In this document: positions 16,626 through 26,473 of the stretch, one piece after another
Layout of the letters: every line of letters starts with the position of its first letter
How positions within the stretch are numbered: position 1 is the stretch's first letter
NCBI GenBank assembly: GCA_012798835.1
Contig: JAAZML010000072.1
Coordinates: 1 to 37,307 of the forward strand
Direction of reading: 5' to 3'
Length of the DNA: 37,307 nt
DNA from: Clostridium sp.
GTDB lineage: Bacteria; Bacillota; Clostridia; Acetivibrionales; Acetivibrionaceae
Made by a program: the position numbers and the translations under genes
Notes under the pieces: model-generated
The model's database searches: none
What the model was told of the DNA's origin: nothing
What the model saw: only the letters and a program-made list of their open reading frames with translations

Positions 16626-17480
16626 TTAATATGTTGAAAGCGCCCGACTTATCATCATCGAACAATCTGCCCGATTTATCGGGTTGTCTTCTGCAAATGT
16701 ATTATAAAGGCTGTCTTCAGCCGATAAAACTCCTACATCAAACATCCTTTTAACCGAATCACTGTACCACATATCTTTTTTAAGCTTTGAGTAAATTCCG
16801 TTTCTTGTGGTTTTAAAAGAAAAAGCTCTGGATATAATTGAACTGACCTCCGCAAAGCTTATCGGGTTATCGGGCCTTATCGTCCCGTCTTCATAACCAG
16901 AAATCAGCCCATGCCCCGACGCAAGCATAATTATATTCCTTGCCCAATGTCCTTCCAAATCTTCAAATTGACTCGTATTTTCTACTCTCCCCTCAATATT
17001 TAGCGCCTTTACGATAAGAACCATAAACTCAGCCCGTGTGATTTTGTTGTAGGGTCTAAAGGAGCCATCGGGCATACCCTTTATAATTCCTGCATTGCGA
17101 AGATGTATAATGTATTCTTTAGCATCTATTTCTTTTATATCATTAAAAGGCACCCAATCCTGATCATTAATGTCTATGAGATTTATGCGTATGGGGGGTA
17201 TAGCCCCCGCCAGATCATAATCAAGACTTACTTTCTTTGGAGCACCCTTTTTGATCTCATAACCAATGTGCAAAACCCTGCCATTTTCCAGATGATAATA
17301 GGCAATCGCCACACCGTTTTCATCCAGGCTTTCAGGAGGTATGCTTATGGTAATTCTCGCCTTTTGGGAAGTCAAATCCGAAAGCCGGTATATAGCCCCT
17401 CCCGCATCGACTTTTTGGACACTAAAGGCAACGGTTAGTACCATGGTTATTATGTATACCTTTATACTGTTTATATTCAC
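16626..17480 (-). CDS. S-layer homology (SLH) domain protein
   Basis: Signal peptide; about three SLH repeats: HLRNAGIIKGMPDGSFRPYNKITRAEFMVLIVKAL, FEDLEGHWARNIIMLASGHGLISGYEDGTIRPDNPISFAEVSSIISRAF, and a third SVKRMFDVGVLSA...NPINRADCSMMISRAL. GTG start at 17480 has a GGGGTG SD. Confidence 0.92.
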   Translation of the reverse strand: MNINSIKVYIITMVLTVAFSVQKVDAGGAIYRLSDLTSQKARITISIPPESLDENGVAIAYYHLENGRVLHIGYEIKKGAPKKVSLDYDLAGAIPPIRINLIDINDQDWVPFNDIKEIDAKEYIIHLRNAGIIKGMPDGSFRPYNKITRAEFMVLIVKALNIEGRVENTSQFEDLEGHWARNIIMLASGHGLISGYEDGTIRPDNPISFAEVSSIISRAFSFKTTRNGIYSKLKKDMWYSDSVKRMFDVGVLSAEDSLYNTFAEDNPINRADCSMMISRALSTY

Positions 17481-17538
17481 TATTATGCACCCCAAATCCT
17501 TTTTTAAAAGGCTATTTTTTAAAAAAATATCCAGATAT

Positions 17539-20500
17539 TTATTCCAACTCCCCAGTATATACTAAAATCTTTTCGATAAGCGCCAACATCTCGCCCCTTT
17601 TTATATATTTATCGTTAGCTATAGGTCTTTTATCATCGTCCATAATATATAGCCCATTTTTTTCGATAAACTCATGCTTTTCCTGCAGTTCTAAAACTTT
17701 GCCTGTCTTTAGCTCAAATAACCTTACAATCATTGTATAGGCTTCCTCTGCCGTACAATTTTTATTAGGGTCTTCCTTACCTGTCGTGGAGATAAATCCG
17801 GCTCTGGAAGCCCCTTTCATGAAATTGCTATCATATTCGAAACCCAAAACGTCCATCAAAAATTTTAACGCCTGACCCAGTGTTACATAATTATCGGGCT
17901 CAAAGAGTCTCCCAGATACGCTATTTAAATGATATAAGGAGGCAACATTGTTTATAGAGTCTTCGTATTTGTGATAATATACATCGTCAAAATAAGAATA
18001 ACCCGGCTCGCCTATAATGGTATCACCCATTTTGATCATTCCATACATGAGGCTACCTTTATTCCTATCGTGATCAATAATGTATTTTGTATTCAATTCT
18101 TCCCATGTTTTTGTTCTATTATTTAACCAAAGCCCTGTAGTTTTTCCCATTTTGTATTCATCTTTAAATTCTCTTAAAACCAAAAGAGGTCTTAGAAGTG
18201 ATGATACCGGTACAACGTTCCCACCATCTATCAAGTCAATTCCGATGCTGAATACCTCCCCCTTGAATACCATGTTTTTTGCTGAGGTATCTATATCCTT
18301 GGGGTGGGATATATTTATGATATAATCCGTCTCATATTCTTTATTTGCCGGGAAAACATAAGCATTACCAGGGAATGTGCCCGGTCTTATCGTAAAAGAA
18401 AATTTCTCCGTCTTTATTGTCAGATTCTCGGAAAGTTTGGTCAAACCCTCAAAAACCCTATTACTGATGCACAGTCTCAATTGTTCATAAGTCCCAGGTG
18501 CATCCGTAAGATCGATTGTTACATCTAATTTATTATCTTTTATGACCCTTTCGATAAAACGATCCGCATTTATACCCGTTATTTTTATATTCCATACCCC
18601 ATTTTCTACGGTATCAGCTTTATCAATAAAATCACCGGTTATTACTTCTTCAATATCAACATTCGAATCGTAATCATCACTACTGCTTTTAGTTCTGACC
18701 GATATGGTATGTGTTGCGGCAGATCGCATAGCCTTTACAGGATCATAGGCGTAGAGCCTTGCATAATAGCGGTGGTTTGATATAAGGCCTTCAATTGTAT
18801 ATTCGGAACTCTCACCCGTTTCATATTCGATGGAATCCTCAAAATCCGCATCATGTGAAATCTCTAGTATGTAACCAAAACCCTCATCTTGCATCCACTC
18901 AAAGGTAATGGTGTTTTTTGTTACAGCATCGGCGCTGTTTTTTATTCCAAACCCCTTTGGGCTTTCGGGTGCCACAATATCCAATGTACTCACCAAATAA
19001 GAATCGCTCCATTGGGAAGCAATAGCTCCGCCTGCCGGGTGTGCCTCGGCCTGCAGCCAAAAATAATAAAGCGTTCCGGGATTCAGCCCCCCAACCCTAT
19101 AGTACATAGAGTCATTAAATTCTTCTTGTGTGATCTCAAAGGTTCCGATGGACGAATTTATATTATCCTCGATTCCATACTTGATATAATAGCTATATCC
19201 AGGATTAAATTCCCACCCTAGATCTATATATACATCCCCCGGCATGCTATAGTTAAAAAACGGTACAATGGGTTTTTCATCCGGCGGTATTATAATAGGA
19301 TCCGTGGTCACTACTATAGGTACTGATGCCTCTGATACAAGTCCCATATCCGGCCGCACTGCCCTTACCCACACAACATATGCCGTATTTGCTTCCAATC
19401 CGGTTAATTTGATATCAATATTATGTTTATTGCCATCGGCGCTAAGCAGGGGATTTTCCAACGGATCGTTGGGATTAACAGAAAAATTGGTTACCCAGTC
19501 AGCCGGAATATTTTCGATACCATCGTATGACATACCCTCAACAAATTCGATACATCCTACATCTATTTTAATCTCGGGATCATAAATTACTTTTCTATAA
19601 TGCACGCCATCGATCACAATTTTTTCGGGTCCATCGTCCCCTATGGGATCGTCCCCATCCCCCTCATTTGATCCCGACTCATCTGTAGGTATGAAGGGAG
19701 GGATATCATTTTCGTCTAATTTTTCCGTTCTTATATATTCCCATTGTTTCTTTTCCGTATTAAATTTTTCATACCACATATTTTGAAGCTGGATGGTGAT
19801 AGAATCCTCGGTAATAGCATGCCTACCATCGGCATATTTTTTGACCTTTAAAGGAGGTCTTGCCGGTACTAATGGCTGGTCGATAGGCCCTTTTGGCGGT
19901 GTAACAATGACCTTGAAAGCCGAATCGGATTGATACATTATCCCCTGTAAAACATCGTCGACGTACTCTAAAAACTGCCTTTTGGCAACTATTTTAAAAT
20001 AATAAGTGGAATTGGGGGTTAGTTCTAAAACCGTATAGCTATGCCCTATAACTTTGCTGTCATAGGATATATACGCCCCCTTCTCTATGCTTAGGTTCTG
20101 GGCCCTGAGTGCCTCGGGCGGCGGGTTATCGATTAAATCCGGATCCTCTATAACCCATATATCATATACAATGTTTTCATCCATCTCCCCGTTTCCATCT
20201 AGGGGTGCTCTCCAGATTATTGTGGCCTCTTGAGGGGTAAGATTTTGATCATAACTTGCAATAACATCCCCGTTTTCACTAAGAAATTTATCCACCACTT
20301 CAGGCATCGCAGGGTAAAAAGCAATCTCCTGCTCCTTTAATGTAATTTCCTGGGATTCTATCTTTATTCCTTCATAAACATCATGGCCACCCCTCGTAAC
20401 CAATGCCTTTATAATAAAATAATTTTCTACCCCATCGGGGGGCACGGTAACAAAAAAGCTGACATCGCTTACTTCTGCCACATATTTAGGCAACTCCGAC

Positions 20501-21456
20501 GAACCCACTACCCCCTCATAAATATGATAAACTATTTTTATATCGCTGTCACCAAGCCCGGTAACAACTGGGGTCCAGTCAAGTCTCCACACCGCACCGA
20601 AACTGTCATTTGAAATTTTTGTAGTCTTTACAAGTATGAATGTACTTACTGAAACAATATTACTGTATTGGTTCTTCTCCAGCTCGTTATCGTTTACATC
20701 CGGCTCTATTCTTATATGATAAACTCGCCCCGGATCCCGTGCTGTATAAATATACTCAAGCTTCCCCGTCTCCTGATTAACCTGAATCGGGCCATCTCCC
20801 CCTATCTGCCCTTTTCTTACGTATAATGGGGGGGTATTAGAAAAACTCTTGTCCTCGGATACATACAGCTTATAGTCTATCCTCCCATCGGTATTCCAAA
20901 CATCATCCCAAATGATTTTAATCTTATTATCCTCAATTGAATAGGCGTCTACATTGATATCTGTCATAACCTTGATTCTGTTTGAAGCTGTTGATTCGGG
21001 GCCCGTACCTTTGGTTATATTCGAGCCCTGATCATAATTGTAATCACAGTAGGCGGTTGTATCTATATAGTAAATAGTACCGGATTTAAGGTTTTTTAGT
21101 CTATGCTGTTCATTTTTAAATTCACCATCAGTGTTTGTCACAACTATCTGTTCCTTAAAAGAACGGGCACCCCCGCCTTTATAGGGTTTTGGTATTTCAC
21201 GGGTATAAAACTTGGTGTATCCTGTATTGAAATAATATGGAGAACTAAGGGGGAGATACAAAGCATCCCACTTAACATCCGCATAATAACCATCAAAACG
21301 GTTATATCCTATAGCTGGTTCATCAGGATTTAGTGTATGAAGCACCAGATTTTTTGTTTGTGCATCGCCGGCATATACATTAAAACTCCCCATTTGACAT
21401 ATCAGTACAAATATTGCAAATAAGACTATGTTTTTACCCCTTCGAAATATCGTCAT
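17539..21456 (-). CDS. Large secreted fibronectin type III repeat protein with divergent SLH-like C-terminus (1305 aa)
   Basis: Signal peptide; repeated Fn3-like strands (LTPNSTYYFKIVAKR, LEANTAYVVWVRAVR, LNPGTLYYFWLQAEA, LISNHRYYARLYAYD); C-terminal SLH-like segments. Confidence 0.88.
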   Translation of the reverse strand: MTIFRRGKNIVLFAIFVLICQMGSFNVYAGDAQTKNLVLHTLNPDEPAIGYNRFDGYYADVKWDALYLPLSSPYYFNTGYTKFYTREIPKPYKGGGARSFKEQIVVTNTDGEFKNEQHRLKNLKSGTIYYIDTTAYCDYNYDQGSNITKGTGPESTASNRIKVMTDINVDAYSIEDNKIKIIWDDVWNTDGRIDYKLYVSEDKSFSNTPPLYVRKGQIGGDGPIQVNQETGKLEYIYTARDPGRVYHIRIEPDVNDNELEKNQYSNIVSVSTFILVKTTKISNDSFGAVWRLDWTPVVTGLGDSDIKIVYHIYEGVVGSSELPKYVAEVSDVSFFVTVPPDGVENYFIIKALVTRGGHDVYEGIKIESQEITLKEQEIAFYPAMPEVVDKFLSENGDVIASYDQNLTPQEATIIWRAPLDGNGEMDENIVYDIWVIEDPDLIDNPPPEALRAQNLSIEKGAYISYDSKVIGHSYTVLELTPNSTYYFKIVAKRQFLEYVDDVLQGIMYQSDSAFKVIVTPPKGPIDQPLVPARPPLKVKKYADGRHAITEDSITIQLQNMWYEKFNTEKKQWEYIRTEKLDENDIPPFIPTDESGSNEGDGDDPIGDDGPEKIVIDGVHYRKVIYDPEIKIDVGCIEFVEGMSYDGIENIPADWVTNFSVNPNDPLENPLLSADGNKHNIDIKLTGLEANTAYVVWVRAVRPDMGLVSEASVPIVVTTDPIIIPPDEKPIVPFFNYSMPGDVYIDLGWEFNPGYSYYIKYGIEDNINSSIGTFEITQEEFNDSMYYRVGGLNPGTLYYFWLQAEAHPAGGAIASQWSDSYLVSTLDIVAPESPKGFGIKNSADAVTKNTITFEWMQDEGFGYILEISHDADFEDSIEYETGESSEYTIEGLISNHRYYARLYAYDPVKAMRSAATHTISVRTKSSSDDYDSNVDIEEVITGDFIDKADTVENGVWNIKITGINADRFIERVIKDNKLDVTIDLTDAPGTYEQLRLCISNRVFEGLTKLSENLTIKTEKFSFTIRPGTFPGNAYVFPANKEYETDYIINISHPKDIDTSAKNMVFKGEVFSIGIDLIDGGNVVPVSSLLRPLLVLREFKDEYKMGKTTGLWLNNRTKTWEELNTKYIIDHDRNKGSLMYGMIKMGDTIIGEPGYSYFDDVYYHKYEDSINNVASLYHLNSVSGRLFEPDNYVTLGQALKFLMDVLGFEYDSNFMKGASRAGFISTTGKEDPNKNCTAEEAYTMIVRLFELKTGKVLELQEKHEFIEKNGLYIMDDDKRPIANDKYIKRGEMLALIEKILVYTGELE

Positions 21457-21458
21457 AT

Positions 21459-24400
21459 TTACCCTCCAATAAGTTCTAGAAGTTTTATAAAGATGCTGGC
21501 CAGCTCTGCACGGTTTACATTTTTCTCGGGTATAAATGCATTGTTGTTATCAAGCTTCATTACGTCCAAATCCAACACCATCGTTACATGTTTAAAATAT
21601 TCATCGTCAATTTTGTTTTCATCACTAATGAAAATATATCCCTTAGGTATTAGGTTTCTGGTATCAACCCCGGTTTTTTCAGAATATATCTCCATTACAA
21701 CAAAGGCTGTTTCTTGCCGGTTAGCGTCTCTTAAAATACCGCCAACCCCCAAAAGATCTTTTAGCCCGTATTTATTTGCCTTCTGGCTTATGGTAAGACC
21801 AAAACTTTGGGCCCCTTTGCCCAGCACTTCTTCATACAATAAAATAATTTCTTTTATTGTAACGGCATCCTCCGGATAAAAAGTTTCCATAGAACCAAAT
21901 ATCTCTCTCATGTCGTATTTTTCTATAAATGTCTTTATATCATCTCCCGCAGGGTAATTGCTCGGTACATCCAAGGGGGAAAGATTTAGTGAGAAAATGG
22001 CATATTCACCGGTGCCGACTACATTGAAAACCATGCTATTGCCCAAAAAAGCGGTATTGTGAACCAGCTTTCTCCAGTCCCTTTCATCGTCGTATAAAAC
22101 ATAGGGTAGTTTAATCCCCCCTGTATCATCGTTTATGTACATTTTTATCATCATGGGCCTATCAAATGTTTGGATTGCCTTGGTTAGGGAAATTACAGGA
22201 TGCATGTCTGTACCTCCCTCGATTCTTTTTTTTATGTATTGTGACAATTCCAACTCAATATCCTCGATAAATTCATTGGCCATCTCTCCAAATTTTGCGG
22301 ACCGATGAATATTATCATAAGCCCTTTTTAGCTTTTCTTGTAAAAGTCCCGTGTCCTCGTTATATATTTTGTTTTTTATTTCATGCTCAAGCCTTGGTAC
22401 ACTTATGCTTATGCCTATAATGTCTACATCCAGGCGATTTTGTATTGCTGCAGGTATGCAATCTTTTGGCAGAGGCCTTACCGATTTTGCCATACGATTT
22501 ATTACAAGCCTATAATAAACGCCATTTATATTTGCTTTATCCTTTATCTTTATAAGTTCTGGATTATTACCTGTAAAAGTTTGGGGTCTTATGCTGTATT
22601 CAGAATCCATCGTCTTTATAACAAGGCTTTTATTTTCCCTATTCAAAGCTTCAATAACATTTTCGGGAATATATATAATATCACTGTCTAGGCCTTGGGC
22701 AATATTCGATATATCCAGTATAAAGGGGTTGGCACCGCTATTTTCAATTGCATTTACCATTCTTTCACCCTTTATTAAAAGCTTATTGGAAAATCCATTT
22801 CCTATATCCACCCTCCAGTACAGCCACCTTCCAAATTGCTGCATAGCATCGTGAAGTGCCTCCTCTTTTCGCCTTTCCTCATCTTCTTTATCATATTCTT
22901 CTTGATCAAACTCTGTCCTGCCAATTATAGGCCCAGCGTATTTTGAATATGATACCTTGTCTGTTTCCACAGGATCTTCCTTTATCGCCCTTACTTTTAT
23001 GTAATATTTGGTATTGGGGTTAAGGGATATGTTTTGGACATCCCCATCGCCCACTCTTACGGGAATAGATTTTATCCTTGCGAAACAATATTCGTGGTTG
23101 TTTTCAAAAGTTTTGTTATTTTCTTCGGTATAATAGGGGAGTACTCTTCCGTCACTTACGGCATATTCTTGCAGATTATCGTCTGTCAAGGTAATATAGT
23201 CGTCATCAAAGTATGATTTTAAAGCAACCTCGTACTTATAGCCATAAATACCATCCCATACTATTTCGATTTGATGGCGATCATCCCTTGTTTTCATGTT
23301 TTCACCACTAAATTTGGGAATTGTATTATTTCCCTTATGGACATCCACATCATAATAGGTATTTGGCTCAAGGCCCAATATTCTTACATAGCAGATCTCA
23401 TTCATTTTAAAAATTGTGTATTTGTTTTGGGATAGATATCTTCCGGTAAGCTCTCCCCTTGATTTTAAATACACCTTATAATCATCTGCCTTTGCGTTTA
23501 CATCGGCATCAGTAAAGAAGAACCCAAGCCCCACATCACTTACCAGTTCCAAATATTCCGGCTGTTCAATAAGGGATGTGGTGACGGGGATACTAACCCA
23601 GGGGCTGTATTTTGTGCTGTCTTCTTTATCCACCGCCCTAATACTAAAATAATACAGCCTATTTGGAAACAACCATCTATCTATTGTCAGTTGACATTCA
23701 CCGCTGATTGCTTCATACTCAAACCCTTCTTCCGGATTTGGCAACAGGGGATCGAGTATGATATCCCCAAATTCCTCAGAAAAACTTTTTGACACCGGAT
23801 CCGAAGATATATTAAATTGTTCGTTGGGTTCAACCCTTTTGGAGCTGCAAATAATTTCATAGACAACCCCGTCTTCCTTTTTGCTCCACATAAATTTTGC
23901 CTTAGTACTTTCCACCATGGGGTTGTTGTCTCCATCCATTGCTATTGCAAAATCCGTTGGCGCCAAGGGCCTTTTGTTAGACTCGTCCGGCTGCTCATAA
24001 ATACCCTTTATTGTGGTAACAGATACTGCTGCAGTGGGCAGGGATTCTCTTTCGGCATCACCAATTTTAAGTCTTGTTTTTATATAAAAATAATATGTGC
24101 TGTTGGGTCTTAGAGCATCCCCAAAAGCTGTGTATGCATCGGTATCGTGTGAAAAATGTCTTACTGTCGCCCTTATGCTTTTATTTTTTGCATCCTCTAC
24201 ACCTGAAAACACCAGGTCTCCCTCCAAATCTTCCGTGGTTCCTATCATTCTAAAAGTATTTGCGTTCGGATTAGACCCCATATATATATCGTAAAATACC
24301 TCTTTTTCTACATCCGTGTCTTCTGCATAGTTATCCCAATTTATATTTGTCTTTTCAAACTGAAGTTCTACATAGTTAGATATTTCAACCGTCTCATCAA

Positions 24401-26294
24401 TATTAACATCAGCATCATTTTTTGAGATCCTCAGATTTTGGGCCAGAGGCACCTCTACCTCGCCTACTGATAATGTGGTAAAGCTTACTATCACAGATTT
24501 GTCCGGCAATTCATCTTCAACGGCATTCCTTGATTCTGCTATTGTTGCACACATTTGCATATAATATACCGTGTTAGGAAGCAAAAACTCCGGATACCCC
24601 TCGGTGTCCCCAATATCATCCAGGACAATTTCGGGTTCATCGCCAGCCATACTTCTAAAATATTCGCCCTTGAAAAGTTCGAGCCCCTTTATGGTATATT
24701 CAAGCCTGTCTCCATTCTCCTGCACGCATTTTGATGAAAAATACAGCACCTTTCTGTACTTTATAGGAAATGATCCGTGATTTACACCCTCAGCTATAAG
24801 TTCGGATTTTTCTGTGGTATCGGTATTTATTGGCCTTGTGCTTAACAACACATGAAATACAATATCCTTTTCAGGAACGGTATTTGATTTGATTTGCTCC
24901 CAGTTAGCAGGCTTTTTCCACGATATGGTGATATCTGTAGATTTTTTATAGCTCTCTCCATCCTCTTTTGATACGGCATTTCTCCCGATTATACTGATAT
25001 CGCTTGGCGCTTGTGGCTTGCCTGTATCTTCTGCCAATTTATAGGGCAGGGGCTGGGATTCAAGCCAATCGGAAGGGGAATCGGTTTTTGCCACAACCCG
25101 GTAATATATTTCATTATCCGCCGCCACACCCGTTATAACCGTTATGGCGCTGTCGGAACCATAGGGAAATGAACTATCATCCATTTTCTTTTTGTTTTCC
25201 CAATCATCGGCACTGTTGGGATCATTTTTTGCCTGAATTTCATAAAACATATTCGGCATATTAAGGCTTCCCTGGTTCACTCTATAAACCTTAGCGTAAA
25301 TGTTGTTTTCTGTATCCTTGGATAATTGAAATCGTGTATAGGTGTACGTATAGGGCTTGTCCCCCAAAATCGGACTGCTTTTATAATATATAAAAGAGCT
25401 TAAACCCGGTACTTCCTTATCAAATTTAAATATGGGGGTTATATTCATATAATACACTGTGCCAGGAAGTATTCCATCATGCAAAAGAACATCTTGCTCC
25501 GACACATCGGGCATAGATGCATACTCATCCTTTCTGCCCAAAAGATTAAAACTCATATTCCCAGATTCATTGGCGACCACAGCGCTTCTGTCTGTATTGC
25601 CAGATACATAAGCTCCAAATCCCTGCACCCCGTCCTCAATTATAACCGAACTTACATCAGGGCCGCTGTTTAGCAAGGAATAGTCGGTAGAAATATTGAA
25701 TCTAAATCCCAGATCCTCTATCGAAAAATCTAATCCATATATGTCCTTTAGCTTTTGGCATATATAAGTTTTGGCTTCTTGTTCATTCGCCGCAATAACT
25801 GCCTTATTATTGTCGACCCATACCCTGGGCATAGACCATTTTAGCTTTAATTGCGGTTTATCCCCGATTTCAAAACCCCCACCCGCAAGCTCCGTCCTTT
25901 CCTGTCCTACCCTTTCAACACGGAAACTAATACCCGGTAAAAAGTATAAAAGCCCTTTCCCTATCGGGTTTCCTTCACAATTTTCTTCGTCATAAATCTC
26001 TATGAAAATATCGTAAATATAATCGTTTTTTATACCCGATAATACATGCGTACTTTGTACCTGTGTACCGGTAGCCTCTACGGTTTTTAGGTCTCCATTG
26101 GGTTCATGATAGACTAATTTATAAGATTTTGCTCCCGATGGATTGTTCCATTTAAGCTCCAAATTCCCATCTTCTGCGAAGGAAACAACGGAGATTTGTA
26201 TAGGATTTTGAGCCGCAAAAACAGTGTTCTTGAGGGGCAAAACCAAAAGACAAATAAGCACAGCAATGGTTAAAACACTCGTATATTTTTTCAC
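21459..26294 (-). CDS. Giant secreted fibronectin type III repeat protein with divergent SLH-like C-terminus (1611 aa)
   Basis: GTG start; signal peptide; repeated motifs (ILPGTVYYMNITPIF, LLPNTVYYMQMCATI, LRPNSTYYFYIKTRL, LFPNRLYYFSIRAVD, LNPNTKYYIKVRAIK); C-terminal KNVNRAELASIFIKLLEL. Confidence 0.88.
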   Translation of the reverse strand: MKKYTSVLTIAVLICLLVLPLKNTVFAAQNPIQISVVSFAEDGNLELKWNNPSGAKSYKLVYHEPNGDLKTVEATGTQVQSTHVLSGIKNDYIYDIFIEIYDEENCEGNPIGKGLLYFLPGISFRVERVGQERTELAGGGFEIGDKPQLKLKWSMPRVWVDNNKAVIAANEQEAKTYICQKLKDIYGLDFSIEDLGFRFNISTDYSLLNSGPDVSSVIIEDGVQGFGAYVSGNTDRSAVVANESGNMSFNLLGRKDEYASMPDVSEQDVLLHDGILPGTVYYMNITPIFKFDKEVPGLSSFIYYKSSPILGDKPYTYTYTRFQLSKDTENNIYAKVYRVNQGSLNMPNMFYEIQAKNDPNSADDWENKKKMDDSSFPYGSDSAITVITGVAADNEIYYRVVAKTDSPSDWLESQPLPYKLAEDTGKPQAPSDISIIGRNAVSKEDGESYKKSTDITISWKKPANWEQIKSNTVPEKDIVFHVLLSTRPINTDTTEKSELIAEGVNHGSFPIKYRKVLYFSSKCVQENGDRLEYTIKGLELFKGEYFRSMAGDEPEIVLDDIGDTEGYPEFLLPNTVYYMQMCATIAESRNAVEDELPDKSVIVSFTTLSVGEVEVPLAQNLRISKNDADVNIDETVEISNYVELQFEKTNINWDNYAEDTDVEKEVFYDIYMGSNPNANTFRMIGTTEDLEGDLVFSGVEDAKNKSIRATVRHFSHDTDAYTAFGDALRPNSTYYFYIKTRLKIGDAERESLPTAAVSVTTIKGIYEQPDESNKRPLAPTDFAIAMDGDNNPMVESTKAKFMWSKKEDGVVYEIICSSKRVEPNEQFNISSDPVSKSFSEEFGDIILDPLLPNPEEGFEYEAISGECQLTIDRWLFPNRLYYFSIRAVDKEDSTKYSPWVSIPVTTSLIEQPEYLELVSDVGLGFFFTDADVNAKADDYKVYLKSRGELTGRYLSQNKYTIFKMNEICYVRILGLEPNTYYDVDVHKGNNTIPKFSGENMKTRDDRHQIEIVWDGIYGYKYEVALKSYFDDDYITLTDDNLQEYAVSDGRVLPYYTEENNKTFENNHEYCFARIKSIPVRVGDGDVQNISLNPNTKYYIKVRAIKEDPVETDKVSYSKYAGPIIGRTEFDQEEYDKEDEERRKEEALHDAMQQFGRWLYWRVDIGNGFSNKLLIKGERMVNAIENSGANPFILDISNIAQGLDSDIIYIPENVIEALNRENKSLVIKTMDSEYSIRPQTFTGNNPELIKIKDKANINGVYYRLVINRMAKSVRPLPKDCIPAAIQNRLDVDIIGISISVPRLEHEIKNKIYNEDTGLLQEKLKRAYDNIHRSAKFGEMANEFIEDIELELSQYIKKRIEGGTDMHPVISLTKAIQTFDRPMMIKMYINDDTGGIKLPYVLYDDERDWRKLVHNTAFLGNSMVFNVVGTGEYAIFSLNLSPLDVPSNYPAGDDIKTFIEKYDMREIFGSMETFYPEDAVTIKEIILLYEEVLGKGAQSFGLTISQKANKYGLKDLLGVGGILRDANRQETAFVVMEIYSEKTGVDTRNLIPKGYIFISDENKIDDEYFKHVTMVLDLDVMKLDNNNAFIPEKNVNRAELASIFIKLLELIGG

Positions 26295-26301
26295 AGAATG
26301 A

Positions 26302-26465
26302 CCCCCGGGTAAAATGATATTTCACTTTAATTTGTCAGTGAAATGATGTTTCACTTTAATTTGTCAGTGAAATGGTATTTCACTTTAATTTGTCAGTGAA
26401 ATGGTATTTCACTTTAATTTATCGGTAAAATAAAGTAAAAACTTTAACATTCATGTTCCCGGGGG
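26302..26465 (-). promoter_or_regulatory. Candidate structured mRNA leader: complementary arms enclosing the palindrome array, 3' arm overlapping the SD
   Basis: CCCCCGGG at 26302-26309 and CCCGGGGG at 26458-26465 are exact reverse complements. In mRNA sense the 3' arm CCCGGGGG ends 7 nt before the GTG start (26294-26292). Confidence 0.45.
26308..26431. repeat. 29-bp-period tandem array; units form 19-bp near-palindromes
   Basis: GGTAAAATGATATTTCACT (26308-26326), AGTGAAATGATGTTTCACT (26337-26355), AGTGAAATGGTATTTCACT (26366-26384), AGTGAAATGGTATTTCACT (26395-26413), degenerate half-site GGTAAAAT (26424-26431); the 10-nt linker is TTAATTTGTC in the first three intervals and TTAATTTATC in the last. 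Confidence 0.95.
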
Positions 26466-26473
26466 AATAGAGA

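Follow-up and report, generated by a model that had tools for sequence, protein, structure and literature searches.

The 29-bp tandem array in the leader of a giant Fn3/SLH surface-protein operon from a Clostridium sp. looks like a lineage-specific tandem duplication, and the conserved regulatory element of that leader appears to be the sigma28/SigD-type (motility) promoter inside whose -10 element the array begins. As a whole, this reading, a duplicated 29-bp leader segment behind a sigma28-type promoter with a modest effect or none at the RNA level, has in our estimate a probability of about 0.7. Its account of origin and promoter is highly probable, while the proposition that the resulting hairpins matter for expression is tentative and somewhat doubtful. 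What seemed to be an operator array would become a readable case of leader growth by slippage at an 8-bp repeat, in which the duplicated -10 was silenced.

The window, that is, the whole stretch of 37,307 nt that was analysed, encodes on its minus strand a secreted Fn3 and SLH protein of 1611 aa with a GTG start (21459..26294; domains from Pfam), which has orthologues across the order; of 100 related genomes, 59 contain a relative of it. Its downstream neighbours on the same strand are a 1305-aa Fn3 protein (17539..21456), which follows after 2 nt and presumably shares an operon with it, and a 289-aa SLH protein (16626..17495), the probable third gene of that operon. Locus L005 carries similar-sized ORFs in the same order as the 1611-aa/1305-aa pair. 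The array is contained in the 179-bp gap upstream of the 1611-aa gene (26295-26473), where the sequence-only reading had reported palindromes at 29-bp spacing, and all details of that description were confirmed. On the plus strand, a degenerate palindrome GGTAAAATGATATTTCACT (26308-26326) is followed by AGTGAAATGATGTTTCACT (26337-26355), by two occurrences of AGTGAAATGGTATTTCACT (26366-26384 and 26395-26413) and by a half-site GGTAAAAT (26424-26431). The palindromes are 19 bp long, three of them near-perfect and one degenerate, and together with the half-site they keep an exact 29-bp register. The half-site was correctly placed; its identity has to be revised, since GGTAAAAT is the complement of ATTTTACC, which on the minus strand overlaps the -10 element of the conserved sigma28-type promoter.

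Tandem Repeats Finder (TRF) assigned the leader array a period of 29 bp, 4.1 copies, 93% matches and a score of 198. The array is beyond chance, because the highest TRF score reached by any of 60 dinucleotide shuffles of the window was only 63. A lone palindrome is unremarkable and by itself weak evidence: perfect 8-bp-arm palindromes with loops of 2-5 nt numbered three in the window against a shuffle mean of 3.9, and the palindromes of the array are not independent observations because its units are copies of each other. The source genome is a draft (91% complete, 171 contigs); mis-assembly of the array is unlikely, given that it is about 120 bp long and composed of variant units.

Read on the minus strand, which is the coding strand, the array consists of copy 0 TTTTACCGATAAATTAAAGTGAAATACCA (26402..26430), copy 1 TTTCACTGACAAATTAAAGTGAAATACCA (26373..26401), copy 2 TTTCACTGACAAATTAAAGTGAAACATCA (26344..26372) and copy 3 TTTCACTGACAAATTAAAGTGAAATATCA (26315..26343). 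Copy 0 contains the true -10, and transcription would start near its AAAG. The 8-bp direct repeat ATTTTACC occurs on this strand at the promoter side (26424..26431, the former half-site) and again at the gene side, where it bounds the array (26308..26315). Copy 3 is followed by TTTTACC and then by GGGGG (26302..26306, minus strand), the putative Shine-Dalgarno sequence 7 nt ahead of the GTG start, so the last degenerate copy continues directly into the ribosome-binding site. An inverted repeat, CCCGGGGG (26302-26309) and CCCCCGGG (26458-26467), brackets the promoter-array region; its gene-side copy is the Shine-Dalgarno sequence, and the other copy lies upstream of the promoter, probably outside that transcript.

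A pattern match at 26419-26446 of the minus strand gave TAAA-N17-CCGATAA, the form of a sigma28/SigD promoter, in which TAAA and CCGATAA/T are separated by 15-18 bases. The -35 element TAAA lies at 26443..26446 in the context GTTAAAGTTT, and the -10 element CCGATAA lies at 26419..26425 with a score of 14.3 (orthologues 10.2-19.7). The SigD consensus of Clostridia, as described in C. difficile, comprises TAAA and CG with 15-18 bases between them, and the C. difficile fliC promoter is TAAA-N17-CCGATAA (PMC3865298). Because the coding-strand leader reads ...GTTAAAGTTTTTACTTTATTTTACCGATAAATTAAAGTGAAATACCA..., the array starts inside the -10 CCGATAA. The window genome encodes two flagellins and a FliA/WhiG sigma factor scoring above the curated cut-off (L067; G000:C86), and of the 58 genomes of the order that were compared, 54 have flagellin. 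A scan for sigma-70 promoters placed one candidate within the array, matching 9 of 12 positions on the minus strand (26342-26314); the region contained three matches in all, where shuffles gave 0.9.

We read the leaders of 28 orthologues for the pattern TWAW-N15-18-NCGATAW at most 400 nt from the start codon. With a pattern refined after the leaders had been seen, and in leaders that are phylogenetically related, the box pair was present in 26 of 28, compared with a mean of 1.0 and a maximum of 5 in 500 shuffles and with none in 28 in-gene control stretches. The strict version with CCGATAW was found in 20 of the 28 leaders (0.2 in shuffles), and the two leaders that had no box pair, L017 and L034, carry GCCGATATAT with a poorer -35. 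Genome-wide, the strict pattern occurred 28 times against 14 for the reversed control; the excess is only about twofold, and therefore the case for the promoter rests on position and orthology and not on the pattern alone. The same motif stands upstream of three flagellin genes in the genus (L086, L089 and L091), as TTAAAG-N-CCGATAAAT, and the window genome's own flagellin (L083) has TTAA-N-ACGATAAATTAA. Further intergenic sigma28-type sites in the same genome lie upstream of genes for FapA, two HD-domain (HD-GYP-like) proteins, PilZ and a HAMP/Cache receptor (loci L056, L076, L059, L044 and L055), and another precedes an L,D-transpeptidase gene. That almost every orthologue across the order (L005-L035) has a sigma28-type promoter suggests that the Fn3/SLH operon belongs to the motility regulon, so that surface-layer remodelling and motility may switch together.

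Leaders of the A. thermocellus-like clade (L009, L010 and L018) have repeated TTAAAGGTAT/TTAAATGTAT segments, and in L009 and L018 a second CGATATTAAA, adjoining these segments, lies 27 bp upstream of the GCCGATAA element. This pattern is possibly an independent, partial promoter duplication.

The promoter is conserved and the array is not. All 28 orthologous leaders lack the array, which was the observation that the sequence-only reading had itself named as refuting a regulatory array, and none of the 57 other genomes of the order contains it (1 of 58 overall). In its own genome the array is present once, with no further copy even at 2 mismatches; an exact search of viral contigs for the unit junction was negative, and most orthologous leaders showed no comparable palindrome. 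Among orthologues, anything from 30 to 371 nt separates CGATA from the start codon, and some of their leaders have tandem repeats of unrelated sequence (12 bp x about 10 in L031, 25 bp x 1.9 in L032, 17 bp in L013), which together identify the stretch as a loosely constrained spacer. In the distant orthologous leaders L031 and L032, the repeats lie between promoter and gene.

This distribution bears directly on the proposal that the array is a cooperative operator, at which a dedicated dimeric repressor would block RNA polymerase just past the promoter. Near-perfect 19-bp inverted repeats at exact spacing next to a promoter are what such a model calls for. However, with 10.5 bp to the turn a 29-bp period spans 2.76 turns, which places neighbouring sites off one helical face, and the site recurs neither elsewhere in the genome (at up to 2 mismatches) nor in the order nor in the closest leaders. 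The array also lies downstream of the promoter, and the linker shows the same degree of conservation as the palindrome, a pattern accounted for by duplication. We consider the operator decidedly improbable. A CRP-like operator was rejected on the spacing of its half-sites: the CRP consensus has a half-site spacing that differs from the GTGA-N9-TCAC found here.

Duplication of an ancestral leader appears to account for the array more economically. Removing three 29-mers brings the start codon to 44 nt from CCGATAA; this length is 44 nt in L007 too and 45 nt in L008, and 29 of 44 bases are identical in each comparison. The collapsed leader reads ATTTTACC...ATTTTACC with the two copies 29 bp apart, and no other stretch of it matches at this spacing over 4 or more consecutive positions. 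A direct repeat at the boundary, one unit apart, is the hallmark of slipped-strand duplication, and ATTTTACC is the expected substrate for such an event, yielding a unit of exactly 29 bp. The most likely route would be slipped-strand mispairing between the two ATTTTACC copies of a 44-nt ancestral leader, by which the 29 bp from the -10 through the transcription start into the first ~20 transcribed bases would have increased from one copy to four. Relative to copy 0, the three internal copies all carry the same three changes, TTTTACCGAT to TTTCACTGAC, by which the -10 CCGATAA becomes CTGACAA and its score falls from 14.3 to 2.8. Random 14-mers reach 2.8 at P = 0.003, and the internal copies are therefore recognisable but probably dead -10 elements. 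The simplest history would be a single duplication, then divergence, with loss of the internal -10 and improvement of the palindrome, and amplification afterwards; L007, the closest full-length orthologue compared, is 57% identical, too distant to date the duplications or to set them in sequence.

Two of the three changes in the internal copies complete the palindrome with AGTGAAA. Either selection for a hairpin or quasi-palindrome template switching, a process described as making imperfect inverted repeats perfect (PMC7202029, PMC3820800), accounts for this, and the two are inseparable here. The array could be a pure mutational by-product, left by slippage and quasi-palindrome correction where the leader is only weakly constrained, a reading to which we assign a likelihood only a little short of even. 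The spread of CGATA-to-start distances and the separate repeats of L031 and L032 fit such a history, as does template switching itself. As the sole explanation it leaves the retention of four copies in a small genome unexplained, and on these data it is indistinguishable from weak selection.

The duplicated leader would be transcribed. If transcription begins a few bases past CCGATAA, at the first palindrome or close to it, the mRNA would carry in its 5'-UTR four weak AU-rich hairpins, the first at the 5' end or only a few bases from it and the last adjoining the ribosome-binding site. Serial RNA hairpins with two alternative stem sets had been suggested beforehand and are formally possible. 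Folding of the minus-strand leader RNA, which the sequence-only reading had put forward as a check, gave a predicted 5'-UTR with z-scores of -3.23 and -3.85 against its shuffles, none of which was equally stable. Predicted energies were -2.5 to -5.3 kcal/mol for stems within a unit and -6.2 kcal/mol for the stem between units; in the model the two sets do compete, and no structure dominates the ensemble, of which the minimum-free-energy structure makes up 3-6%.

These hairpins may have been selected, such that a structured 5' end with exchanging stems guards a long mRNA from decay or tunes translation. The predicted stability, the -5.3 and -6.2 kcal/mol stems and a transcript start that would fall a few bases ahead of the first hairpin are consistent with this, and the two stem-perfecting changes could signal selection beyond mutation, for a hairpin or an operator. 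Yet any tandem palindrome beats shuffles, the copies show no compensatory changes, the minimum-free-energy structure is a minor part of the ensemble, and comparable palindromes are missing from most orthologous leaders. The predicted accessibility of the Shine-Dalgarno sequence, moreover, stays flat at 0.38-0.40 over 0 to 6 extra units. Selection for the hairpins is on balance unlikely. Literature searches on mRNA-stabilising repeats in S-layer leaders and on the Fn3/SLH operon of A. thermocellus gave nothing that addressed either directly, and no Rfam family reached its gathering threshold anywhere in the window. Under the duplication reading, the likeliest outcome would be no effect or a modest one, for example a more stable 5' end on a very long mRNA. 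A stronger version, in which the duplicated -10 and initial transcribed segment formed a new RNA element whose serial hairpins adopt two exclusive pairings and whose copy number sets mRNA lifetime or operon level within populations, is very improbable.

Copy number could also matter through slippage itself, if gain and loss of units altered surface-protein expression as at a contingency locus. The array boundaries are a slippage substrate, and leader repeats of surface genes can be phase-variable, as with the GCAGA tandem repeats before S. gallolyticus pil1 (PMC3894217). Against a copy-number switch, the mechanism is lacking: the units lie between the -10 and the start codon, downstream of both promoter boxes, so their number changes neither the -35/-10 spacing nor a reading frame, and a leader scan found no intrinsic terminator whose formation it could alter. 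Copies 0, 2 and 3 have each diverged, and the array is thus not freshly homogenised. We regard this switch as quite improbable. Occlusion of the ribosome site by increasing copy number was modelled and rejected on the flat accessibility profile, and a leader peptide was rejected because, as read from the sequence, no Shine-Dalgarno sequence precedes the short GTG-started frames (about 10 codons) that the units contain.

The favoured reading, duplication of a leader segment behind a conserved promoter, can be set beside three known systems. Stem-loops close to the 5' end serve as mRNA stabilisers, as in the ompA leader. The present leader resembles such stabilisers in having a hairpin at or near its putative 5' end on a surface-protein mRNA, but differs in that its AU-rich stems occur in series and have little strength (-2.5 to -6.2 kcal/mol). 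With S. gallolyticus pil1 (PMC3894217) it has in common a tandem repeat between promoter and surface gene, a slippage substrate and leader stem-loops; here, however, the unit is 29 bp long, and there is neither a leader peptide with a ribosome site nor a terminator. There is also a likeness to the SigD promoters of Clostridia and Bacillus, such as those of the C. difficile SigD regulon (PMC3865298), with TAAA and CCGATAA boxes 17 bases apart as at fliC, and with the sigma factor, flagellins and motility-type targets also found in the window genome. Unlike those promoters, this one is predicted to drive a giant Fn3/SLH surface-protein operon, and a 29-bp tandem duplication begins inside its -10.
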